Positions 125 to 21,283 of a stretch of 64,000 nucleotides of DNA are shown here, piece by piece. Below the pieces are notes generated by a model that made no database searches, was not told where the DNA came from, and saw nothing but the letters and a program-made list of their open reading frames with translations. Made by a program: the position numbers and the translations under genes. Origin of the DNA: Roseibium sediminicola (lineage in GTDB: Bacteria > Pseudomonadota > Alphaproteobacteria > Rhizobiales > Stappiaceae); assembly GCF_023156505.1 (NCBI RefSeq), contig NZ_JALNMJ010000008.1:1-64000 (forward strand). The letters are read 5' to 3'. Numbering within the stretch: position 1 is the first letter of the stretch; every line of letters starts with the position of its first letter.

Positions 125-601
125 CTGCCCTATGCCTTTGCTTCTCATTTCGCACCGCAAATGCTTGAAGAAGCCCTAGCGATCTATCGGCAGACCTTCC
201 GTCCCTCTCCCTGGCTTGACGCACCCCATGCGATGGTCGCAGCCGGCGTCTGTGCCGCCGAGACGGATGAAGAGGCGGCCTTCCTGCGTTCCTCGCAGAT
301 CCTGGCTTTCGCGCGCCTTCGCAGCGGCACCCCCGGCAAGCTTCCATTGCCGGTCAAGGATCTGTCCCGGGAGATCCCGGATCAGGTTTTGGCACAGGTC
401 AATCTGGCGCTGTCTTTTTCCGCAACAGGTTCGCCGCAAACCGTCAAGCGCAAACTCGGCGAGATCATTGAGAAACACCGGCCGGACGAGTTGATGGTGA
501 CTGGCATGATCCACGATCATTCCGCCCGCATAAAGTCTTTCGAGATTGTCGCGAAGGTGCTTGCGGGTTTCGTCGAACCGGATCTGGAGGTGCCAGCCTA
601 G
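125..601 (+). pseudogene. Luciferase-like (LLM class) flavin monooxygenase, 5'-truncated
   Basis: Only the C-terminal ~158 codons remain. Translation upstream of the ATG at 161 is still meaningful (LPYAFASHFAPQ before MLEEALAIYRQTF), and this is a conserved stretch in LLM-class flavin-dependent oxidoreductases, which are normally about 330 residues. Reading is open from about base 125 and is cut by the end of the IS-like element, so the flavin-binding N-terminal half of the barrel is missing. The ATG at 161 is therefore an internal methionine, not a true start. The TAG stop at 599-601 is part of the CTAG that begins the downstream repeat. A functional enzyme is unlikely. Confidence 0.75.
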
Positions 602-764
602 TGTGGTTGATTTGAAATTCGCCTCATTGTTGCAGCAACCATCGAAGCGAATTTCAAATTCGAAAACCACACTAGAAACATACGCTTGCTAGTCACCCTT
701 TTGAATCTGAAGTTCGTTCCGAGTGTGCCGGGAAATAAGACGAACTTCAGATTCGGGTGACTAG
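598..764. repeat. 167-bp paired-hairpin dispersed repeat, copy 1
   Basis: Two consecutive long inverted repeats: hairpin A at 598-675 (78 bp) and hairpin B at 689-764 (76 bp), separated by 13 bases. Each hairpin starts and ends with CTAG. In A the arms CTAGTGTGGTT and AACCACACTAG plus TTTGAAATTCGC/GCGAATTTCAAA pair around a ~24-base loop with a small internal bulge. In B the arms CTAGTCACCC plus GAATCTGAAGTTCGT pair with ACGAACTTCAGATTC plus GGGTGACTAG around a ~22-base loop. A second copy of equal length is at 18800-18966. The left CTAG supplies the stop codon of the truncated monooxygenase. Nothing coding is seen in it or in the ~80 bases that follow. Confidence 0.92.
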
Positions 765-18799: not shown

Positions 18800-18966
18800 C
18801 TAGTGTTGTGAATTTGAAATTCGCCTCATTGTTGCAGCGACCATCGAAGCGAATTTCAAATTCGAAAACCACACTAGAAACATATGCTTGCTAGTCACCC
18901 TTTGGAATCTGAAGCTCGTTCCGAGTGTGCCGGGAAATAAGACGAACTTCAGATTCGGGTGACTAG
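18800..18966. repeat. 167-bp paired-hairpin dispersed repeat, copy 2
   Basis: Same length, order and orientation as copy 1: hairpin A at 18800-18877, 13-base spacer, hairpin B at 18891-18966, each bounded by CTAG. It differs from copy 1 at only a handful of positions, mostly near the start of the left arm of A (TGTTGTGAA instead of TGTGGTTGA), in the A loop and in the left arm of B. The right-hand CTAG (18963-18966) provides the TAG stop of the minus-strand diguanylate cyclase gene. Confidence 0.92.
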
Positions 18967-21131
18967 AGAGCCACAGCCCTCTCAGGCTCCCCCACAAAGG
19001 CAACGCACTTGTTGCGGCCCGTGGATTTGGCTTCGTAAAGGGCCGTGTCCGCCTTCTGCATCAGCGTGGAGAACTCGACATCCTCACGGGCGGCGGCAGC
19101 GAGACCCATGCTGCACGTGACCGTCTGATCGACTTGAGCCAGCTGGCATTCCTCGATGATCTTGAGGCGCAGCCGCTCGCAGACAAGCATGGCGTCGTCC
19201 ATGTTGGTGTTGTGAAGGATCATGCAGAATTCCTCGCCGCCGACACGGCCGAAGACATCGACCGCGCGCAGGGCGCCGCCGACGACATCGGAAAACAGCT
19301 TGAGAACCTCATCGCCGGTGGCGTGACCATGCAGGTCGTTGATCTGCTTGAACTTGTCGATGTCCATCATCACAGCGGTGAAGGGGCGCTTGGTCCGGCG
19401 GAAGCGCTGTACTTCCGTGTTGGCACGTTCCAGGAAGGCACGGCGGTTGAGAATCTGGGTGAGGTCGTCGATGCTGGCGACCCGCTCCAGATTGATCTTG
19501 GCATCCATCAGGGCCTGGTGGTCGCGCTGGCGGGCGATTTCGTGCCCGACCCAGTCGGCGAACTGGCGTACGATCTGGATGTCCGACGGCGTGAAGGCAC
19601 GCTTGCGCGAGTCCGGTCCGCTGAAATTGATGGTTCCGTGAACCTCGCCGTCGACCAGCAGCGGCGCGCCGATATAGCTTTCCAGCTTGAAGATCTCGTA
19701 GCAGGGGTGCTTCACGAATTCCGAGTTTTCGGCGCTCGAGGTTGCAAGCGGCTCGTTGGACTTAAGTGTCAAGACACAATAGGTGTCCTCCAGCGGGAAG
19801 GACGTGCCGGGCACGAGTTCGCCCGCGGGGCTGTGCGCGTGGGTGATGGTATAGTGGTCGTCAATCACGTGGCTGATGATGCCAAATGGCAGATCGAAAT
19901 GCTCCGTGCCCAGACGCAGGATTTCGGCGATCTTGTCCTCGTGGCCAAGTTCGCGCGTCGACGTGATCTGATAAAGCTCGGCGAGCGTGCGTTCCGTCTT
20001 CTTGCGGTCGGTGTTGTCCGAGATCAGCACGACAATACCTTCGACTGAGCCGTCCTCGGAAAGGCGCGGATTGCAGTTCATCAGACACTCACGATGAACG
20101 CCGTCGGGAAAATGAAAACTGACTTCCGAGGATACTTTTTTACCTTTCGAGGCCTTTTCGAAGATGGCCCTTACGTTTTCGCGTTCTTTCCACGGCAGGC
20201 GGTCGCGCAGACGGGTGCCGACGAGATTCTCGGGTGCGTCAGCAAACCATTCGCAGCCGGTCTTATTTATGAATACGCAGTACCCGTCCGGATCGACCTC
20301 CGTGATGCTGGCGTCAATGTTGTCTGCCATGAGATGGACATTGCGGTAGGCGTTCTCGGCCTGGGCGCGGGCTTGCTTTAGTTCGGTGATGTCGGCGCGA
20401 ATGCCGGCGATACCACCGTTTCTCGTTCGTCTTTCAGAAACCCGCAGCCAGCGGCCATCGGCAAGATTCTGCTCGAGGACCGCACCGTCCGCTGCATGGT
20501 GGCGGTTCAGTCGGTCGGCGAGCCATTCCTCGTCTGTTTGACCGTCTGTGTCATACTGGTTTCTGTTCAGACCGAAACGCAGGATATCCTCGAACCTGTT
20601 GCCCGGAAACATCGCTGGCGCGGAGTGTGCGTAAATCTCGCGATATTGATCGTTGCAGATGATAAGCCGGTCTTCGCTGTCATACAGCGCAAAGCCTTCG
20701 GTGATGGCTTCAAGCGCGTCTTCCAGCGTGAGCGCGATATCGCTGAGCTTGGATTCCAGCGCTTTCCGCTCGGCCTGGTCGCGGGCAATGAAAAGGAGAC
20801 CGCTCAACTTGTGCTCGGTGTCGAACAATGGCGCGCTGACAACCTCGACGGAGGCGGTCTCTCCGTTGCCAAGCATCAACTCCAGATCATAGGCTCTGCG
20901 GTGGCGTTGATCTGAAGGCGACTTGTAAAGCTCGCCCATATTTTCGAATTGCGTGGGGTCGGTAAAAAAACGTTCGGTGGTCGAGCCGACAAGCTCGTCG
21001 CGACTGGCGCGCAGGAGCTCTTCCATGGCCTTGTTGACGAAGGTGATCGTTCGCTCGGAATTGGTGACAAGCACACATTCGTTGAGGTCGCCGAACGATT
21101 GTTCAAGATCCAGGGTTATGCATTCAGCCAT
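18963..21131 (-). CDS. PAS-GAF diguanylate cyclase (GGDEF)
   Basis: A 722-residue cytoplasmic sensor. The order is PAS (about 10-125), PAS (about 140-260, FALYDSEDRLIICNDQYREIY), PAS (about 270-385, DGYCVFINKTGCEWFAD), GAF (about 400-550, with ESYIGAPLLVDGEVHGTINF) and GGDEF (about 565-715). The active site is GRVGGEEF and an RAVD inhibitory I-site lies 5 residues before it, so c-di-GMP synthesis with product inhibition is expected. There is no EAL domain. The ATG at 21131 follows GGGGA; ATG 21137 and GTG 21149 are alternatives. The TAG stop lies in the CTAG at the end of repeat copy 2. Confidence 0.92.
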   Translation of the reverse strand: MAECITLDLEQSFGDLNECVLVTNSERTITFVNKAMEELLRASRDELVGSTTERFFTDPTQFENMGELYKSPSDQRHRRAYDLELMLGNGETASVEVVSAPLFDTEHKLSGLLFIARDQAERKALESKLSDIALTLEDALEAITEGFALYDSEDRLIICNDQYREIYAHSAPAMFPGNRFEDILRFGLNRNQYDTDGQTDEEWLADRLNRHHAADGAVLEQNLADGRWLRVSERRTRNGGIAGIRADITELKQARAQAENAYRNVHLMADNIDASITEVDPDGYCVFINKTGCEWFADAPENLVGTRLRDRLPWKERENVRAIFEKASKGKKVSSEVSFHFPDGVHRECLMNCNPRLSEDGSVEGIVVLISDNTDRKKTERTLAELYQITSTRELGHEDKIAEILRLGTEHFDLPFGIISHVIDDHYTITHAHSPAGELVPGTSFPLEDTYCVLTLKSNEPLATSSAENSEFVKHPCYEIFKLESYIGAPLLVDGEVHGTINFSGPDSRKRAFTPSDIQIVRQFADWVGHEIARQRDHQALMDAKINLERVASIDDLTQILNRRAFLERANTEVQRFRRTKRPFTAVMMDIDKFKQINDLHGHATGDEVLKLFSDVVGGALRAVDVFGRVGGEEFCMILHNTNMDDAMLVCERLRLKIIEECQLAQVDQTVTCSMGLAAAAREDVEFSTLMQKADTALYEAKSTGRNKCVAFVGEPERAVAL

Positions 21132-21283
21132 TTCCATCCCCGCAGTCACGCCTTTGATCGAGCATCGGATATATTCAAGACAATAAAAGTTTAATAAAAG
21201 GGATACGTAACGGAAGAAACAGGGCGGGAAGCGTCTTTGATCTGATTTTATCTGTCATTGTAATCGTAAATATTACGTAGGGT

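Follow-up and report, generated by a model that had tools for sequence, protein, structure and literature searches.

The 167-bp two-hairpin element at 598-764 of the window (the whole stretch of 64,000 nucleotides of Roseibium sediminicola that was analysed) is, with a probability of roughly 0.8, a non-autonomous MITE of the IS630 / Tc1-mariner type, which a transposase would move. Its two-hairpin layout was filed as a new variant among IS630-type MITEs. The MITE reading, already suggested in the original prediction, holds because copies are dispersed, relatives show empty sites, and the right end matches the IS630 family. As in IS630-derived MITEs, the element was short, carried no transposase gene and was present in many copies.

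Layout and distribution of the element

Both copies in the window had the form CTAG-hairpin-CTAG, 13 bases, CTAG-hairpin-CTAG, with the following features:

598..764 (+): copy 1 of the two-hairpin element, 167 bp, with the IS630-like right end at 764
598-675: copy 1, first hairpin (HP1), 78 bp
598..622 (+): copy 1, HP1 outer arm, which is the left terminal repeat (CTAG, then TGTGGT...)
623..646 (+): copy 1, HP1 loop
647..675 (+): copy 1, HP1 inner arm with terminal CTAG and an unpaired 4-nt insert at 662-665
676..688 (+): copy 1, spacer of 13 nt, AAACATACGCTTG
689-764: copy 1, second hairpin (HP2), 76 bp
689..716 (+): copy 1, HP2 inner arm with an unpaired 4-nt insert at 699-702
717..740 (+): copy 1, HP2 loop
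741..764 (+): copy 1, HP2 outer arm, which is the right terminal repeat
18800..18966 (+): copy 2, layout as copy 1
18800..18877 (+): copy 2, HP1
18878..18890 (+): copy 2, spacer, AAACATATGCTTG
18891..18966 (+): copy 2, HP2

Copy 2 had 96% identity to copy 1 and the same 78/13/76 layout, and CTAG was seen at all eight hairpin ends of the two copies, both in agreement with the original prediction. The tetranucleotide had also been described as rare, and it occurred 31 times in the window against a mean of 69 in shuffles (at least 31 in 100 of 100 shuffles); 8 of the 31 fell inside the two copies. Read inward from either end, the element gave CTAG, T, GTGGT or CACCC, and then GAATYTGAARTTCG, which makes imperfect terminal inverted repeats. 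HP1 and HP2 were related to each other, and in each of them the outer repeat paired with an inner copy in which 4 nt were inserted between the end and the core. The four hairpins folded as single-stranded DNA with z from -4.9 to -10.5, and the two strands of copy 1 as RNA with z of -11.3 and -13.2; no shuffle folded equally well in either comparison.

Searching the draft assembly of the same genome (6.35 Mb, with the window as contig C61) with the 167-bp sequence gave 37 places, i.e., 35 beyond the two in the window; 36 were of 163-167 bp and one had 116 aligned bases. The two window copies are therefore not one segmental duplication, since their flanks differ and 35 further places exist, and the alternative of only two copies from such a duplication does not hold. 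Eight identical copies were found among the first 30 own copies fetched, and a tandem pair with a single common CTAG at C1:435705-436034.

By direct BLAST, the element was present in 24 of 45 genomes of the genus and in 33 of 87 genomes of the family, in three of its seven genera (own genome counted in each case). It was matched at the same coordinates in G008 (contig C2) and in the Roseibium algicola plasmid NZ_CP019631.1. Order-wide, 30 of 397 genomes had matches, and 10 of the 30 belonged to the family of the own genome. No more than two candidates were scored per genome, so that copy numbers are lower bounds. Some of the 20 out-of-family genomes matched at one end only. Twenty regions from 14 of these 20 genomes had, by eye, the complete two-hairpin layout in 19 cases, and the remaining one (L271) was half degenerate. 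Relatives of the L253 type were found in 13 plasmid records, four with at least 80% query cover (Ochrobactrum, two Martelella and Rhizobium) and the others as partial matches (Aminobacter, Agrobacterium and Allorhizobium). No match was found in the phage records searched with the element.

One-hairpin derivatives, with the left arm of HP1 joined to the right arm of HP2, occurred in G036 (L048-L052). They look as deletion between direct-repeat arms would give. Their existence implies that both hairpins may not be required.

Insertion sites and terminal repeats

Orthologous loci with and without the element, whose comparison the original prediction had proposed, showed precise empty sites in relatives, usually of one CTAG. 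The flanks of 16 own copies were joined at one CTAG and searched in the 45 genus genomes with six candidates scored for each genome, and 20 regions fetched from the best matches were aligned for six places. At L010, three of four relatives (G034, G023 and G003) had a single CTAG, the TAG of which was the stop codon of the same gene in all three, and G002 had TTAG. The empty site of L027 read CTAG in G023 and CTAT in G034. At L031, six relatives read TTAG (two), CTAG (one, with extra bases) or TCAG (three), and every version yielded a stop codon on the other strand. At L008, the element boundary lay at the stop of a gene, and this stop differed among three relatives. No CTAG was found at the corresponding site in relatives for L023 and L025. 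By eye, the joints at the six aligned places gave no sign that host sequence had been lost.

IS630 itself is said to insert at the TA in CTAG, a result of Tenzen and Ohtsubo from 1991. Passages of PMC2170065 state that its TA target is duplicated. The element likewise lay at TA with clean empty sites, and duplication of TA and of CTAG both fit. Among 36 rows of own copies, CTAG stood at the left end in 30 and at the right end in 34; one of the two misses at the right end (L035) was a coordinate artefact, and that copy really ends in CTAG.

Open frames of at least 120 codons stopped on the TAG of the element at 14 of 67 ends, compared with 10 of 144 control frames (one-sided p = 0.004), in a tally made by eye in which some frames are probably not genes and the counted L023 frame looks spurious. 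The TAG of copy 1 (599-601) was the stop codon of an open frame at 161-601 (146 aa, no Pfam match). A clear case was the right CTAG of copy 2 (18963-18966), which gave the TAG stop of a GGDEF/PAS gene (18963-21149, minus strand), and further clear cases were LeuD-like and aldehyde-dehydrogenase-like proteins, as judged from the look of their translations.

The right end, CTAG followed by TCACCCGAATCTGAAGTTCG, matched the 3' terminal repeat of the IS630 family. A shortened IS630 gene in G083 (NF033545, E = 1.7e-25, under the curated cut-off) was bordered by CTAG and TTACGTGAATCTAAAGTTCG, and its C-terminal part was used to fetch IS630 loci, of which the best 80 of 565, mostly from alphaproteobacteria, were compared. 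A core like GAATCTRAAGTTCG lay past the 3' end of the gene in all 80, with no substitution in 57, one in 18, two in 2 and three in 3. CTAG stood 10 bases ahead of the core in 72 of the 80 and CTAGTCA in 71; in two loci the contig end was too near to judge CTAG. When the same 80 windows were read backwards, the core appeared at up to two substitutions in none. The reverse complement of the HP2 outer arm, the 24-mer CTAGTCACCCGAATCTGAAGTTCG, was exact at the IS end in three of these best 80 of 565 loci (L188, L189 and L217). Ten IS630 elements were measured, nine of 1163-1188 bp and one (L217) of 936 bp.

A plasmid search with the right 32-mer gave 108 records. Among the 60 listed, 10 had an IS630 annotation under the match, 9 were copies of the element from Roseibium/Labrenzia, and the others had a different annotation or none. 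Among the annotated IS630 matches, those in Rhizobium jaguaris, Agrobacterium vitis and Sphingobium had 90-93.5% identity over 31 bases (R. jaguaris was checked). With the left 32-mer, 973 of 1031 plasmid records were from Klebsiella, those among the listed rows matching over 19 bases, and a weak match (E = 3) was found to an Azotobacter salinestris IS630 with the ends CTAGTGTGGTGAATCACAAGTTCGCTTCATTA and CTAGTGTGGTGAATCACAACTACTC, both starting CTAGTGTGGTGAATCACAA. The right end of the element matched the IS630 family, and the left end matched, more weakly, this one Azotobacter IS. The IS with the matching right end had a different left end (CTAG followed by TCACCTGGAACTG...), and no single IS matching both ends of the element was found among the IS630s compared. 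Within the best 80 of 565 loci, no two-hairpin element was found at E 0.1.

Outside the family, G448 had an element with a TGTCC right end together with an IS630 fragment whose reading frame ran to CTAGTGTCCTGATTCCGAAGTTCG (L286); at the other 13 of 14 out-of-family PF13358 loci, no element-like end was seen. Both the element and an IS630-type locus were present in G261 and G262, with ends lacking a visible match. For the right end of the TGGTTC lineage, no annotated IS630 was found among the 18 plasmid records listed. In the Rhizobium jaguaris plasmid (L287:534-1631) and in L286, the IS630 transposase frame had its stop in the TAG of the terminal CTAG, the target site thus completing the stop codon.

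Candidate enzymes and known systems

No match to PF13358 (IS630 DDE) was found in the own genome, a draft assembly, and it is possible that an IS630 lies on an unassembled piece. An autonomous partner in the same genome is common for IS630-derived MITEs, and is not obligatory. Among genomes with copies, PF13358 matched in 2 of 10 from the family; it also matched in 6 of 13 genomes of other families, some of the matches being fragments. Transposase profile searches of the own genome did not find the driver of its recent burst.

Mobilisation by an IS5/IS427-type transposase is very improbable. It would account for the element in a genome that has other CTAG-bounded MITEs and a CTAG-ended IS5-like element, some IS of that type having CTAG ends there; however, no similar end (up to 5 mismatches) was found at the own 9 PF01609 (IS4/IS5) and 24 PF00665 (rve) loci. 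The sole end match among 27 PF01609 loci of nine relatives (L161) proved to be the element itself, in a copy next to an IS, and G036 and G084 had copies but no match to PF01609.

The other CTAG-bounded repeats of the own genome were of several kinds. A second MITE, roughly 265 bp long and bounded by CTAG followed by GGTCAGGACCC, was found in L006:1236-1504, L007:1236-1504, L011, L035 and L038, and its copies adjoined the two-hairpin element at the CTAG of the latter; its GGGTCCTGACC occurred 34 times in the own genome, versus 10 for the pattern read backwards. A third MITE of about 280 bp, with ends GGGTCTGTGGACAATTAGG, was found in L002:1218-1504, L018, L021, L030 and L034. In L034 the two-hairpin element lay inside it, and in L002, L018 and L021 it was uninterrupted, with the site reading different there. 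A further repeat, again of some 265 bp but with the ends AGAGCGTTTCACGGTTAGAT, adjoined a two-hairpin copy at L036:1663-1934. The IS5-like element, at L045:1471-2272, was of 802 bp with ends of CTAG followed by GCCGTGTGGACG, and may be akin to whatever drives the 280-bp MITE.

Paired inverted palindromes with a tetranucleotide foot resemble BIMEs, and the original prediction had named REP-like elements. The partner of REPs is the Y1 transposase RAYT. Parts of PMC3733652 describe a REP as a palindrome of 20-40 bp tagged GTAG or CGTC. The element had CTAG instead, a unit of 163-170 bp rather than a single such palindrome, and an IS630-type right end, and PF01797 (Y1/RAYT) had no match in the own genome. 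This side of the prediction was not sustained, and the chance that the element is a REP/BIME mobilised by RAYT is close to negligible.

A search of mainly open papers found no title or abstract opening describing this two-hairpin family. RIME1 has two large palindromes, and RIMEs are of 108-109 bp. The element differs from RIMEs in size, and kinship is possible. RIME, the Sm-repeats and the A/B/C palindromes of Sinorhizobium/Rhizobium are, in sections of PMC2573895, intergenic rhizobial repeats of conserved secondary structure, which the element resembles, and are given there as of unknown function. RUP of Streptococcus pneumoniae, as presented in portions of PMC2229807, is a short intergenic MITE of 107 bp attributed to IS630-Spn1, and shares with the element its shortness, intergenic position, IS630-like terminal repeats and TA target; in contrast, the element has 163-170 bp, two separate hairpins, inner inserts, a kept spacer, an order-wide distribution and no partner IS found in its own genome. 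The IS630 family shares with the element CTAG boundaries and a right terminal repeat, with identity for as many as 24 bases, but codes for transposase and has a left end unlike that of the element. Correia/NEMIS, ERIC, YPAL and QMITE1/2 are also palindromic MITEs of bacteria, and some of them have an IHF site; the portions of PMC2229807 and PMC5896051 concerned describe none of them as two hairpins kept by covariation. According to the same portions, YPAL lacks TA ends and has duplications of 3-26 bp (PMC2229807), and QMITE1 is of about 400 bp with one terminal-repeat pair (PMC5896051), both unlike the element.

Conservation of the fold and proposed transposition

Pairing was examined in an alignment of 27 diverse elements, chosen by the author among those fetched, with a structure of 49 pairs. 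Near kin were left out (L069-L073, of L068; L075-L078 and L087, of L074; L080, L081 and L083, of L079; and L082, L084, L254, L256, L257, L263 and L265), as were young own copies other than the window pair, own L028-L030, L032, L034 and L035, the degenerate L271, and the shortened or one-hairpin L048-L067. Most row boundaries were set by a CTAG-seeking script, which favours intact ends. Of 1320 cells, 97.4% were paired. Changes on both sides occurred in 32 of the 49 pairs, in 147 cells, whereas shuffles gave 32.2 and slid controls no more than 23. These counts are not independent events because the rows share kinship. The feet covaried from TGTGG to TGGAG in HP1, and from TCACCC to TGTCC to TGGTTC in HP2, with partners changing too. 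A covariance model built from the alignment found an Ochrobactrum element that it had not been trained on, at 147 bits.

The insert of HP1 was of 3-4 nt and A-rich (3 nt in six rows), and that of HP2 of 4-5 nt (5 nt in one) and mostly T-rich, being absent in L037. An unlikely explanation, if one with an appreciable chance, is that the fold is unselected and that the pairing is maintained by arm-to-arm conversion alone (by template switching in palindromes). Loss of the insert in own copies L028, L029 and L032 (HP1) and L037 (HP2) is a correction to a perfect palindrome such as it predicts; yet both inserts were kept in 26 of the 27 chosen diverse members, though conversion should erase them.

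Spacers in the alignment were of 12-14 nt. The spacer of copy 1, AAACATACGCTTG, agreed at 7 of 9 fixed positions with the IHF consensus WATCAANNNNTTR, as printed in a part of PMC5896051. At least 7 of 9 positions agreed in 20 of the 27 rows and in 2% of composition-matched random 13-mers, a figure that is no probability, the 27 spacers being related. The likeness to an IHF site, as read from sequence, is thus one seen in elements that are related to each other.

The 27 young own copies had 32 mutation events, 18 in 98 stem sites and 14 in 69 others (p = 0.86), a number that gives the test little power, and no compensation was found among their 21 altered stem pairs. The prediction of a functional structure stood in part: covariation keeps the fold across the order, and no stem-specific constraint was seen in young own copies. 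A structured RNA or regulatory sequence that serves the host (as terminator, mRNA stabiliser or RNase III site) and spread secondarily would suit the strong fold of both strands, the covariation throughout the order and the several copies directly at gene ends. It is nevertheless improbable, as the presence and place of the element differ between species and mutation in the young copies was even, with 0 of 21 altered stem pairs compensated. Against it stands also that Rfam gave no family at gathering score in the window and, at a relaxed threshold in 8 loci, three weak miRNA-type hairpin matches, all below gathering score. Since inserted copies show no selection on the stems, whereas these are retained in the lineage that propagates, the fold would have its role in propagation, and it seems to serve the propagation of the element and not the host.

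For the preferred IS630-type MITE, an IS630-family transposase supplied in trans would bind the two outer arms and excise the element, which would then be joined to the TA inside a CTAG, with TA duplicated. The element would in that case begin with G and end with C, so that TAG would be rebuilt on both sides and insertion on a TAG stop would leave the gene intact. The inner arms may be copies of the terminal repeats that the insert, by separating end from core, has made unusable; only the outer ends would thus be cut, and the two hairpins would move as one. The spacer is a candidate site at which IHF or another DNA-bending protein might bring the ends of the short element together. Hairpins kept in the propagating lineage could, in the form of extruded DNA, help the element to transpose or, in the form of RNA, reduce the transcription that runs into its ends.

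A further reading takes the element as an order-wide transposable element family that inherits its fold rather than its sequence, with hairpins, marked-off inner repeats and bend site all required for transposition, e.g., in an extruded or single-stranded DNA form; this is tentative, and somewhat more doubtful than probable. It is at a similar level only conceivable that such an architecture was re-tuned to one IS630 transposase after another as the ends changed. No need for hairpin DNA is known in Tc1/mariner-type transposition.

An order-wide compensatory fold together with indifferent decay of young copies opens to test whether a DNA or RNA structure takes part in the transposition cycle. 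The element also shows CTAG-targeting insertion on stop codons with the gene left intact, and its family may explain unnamed repeats in Rhizobiales genomes.
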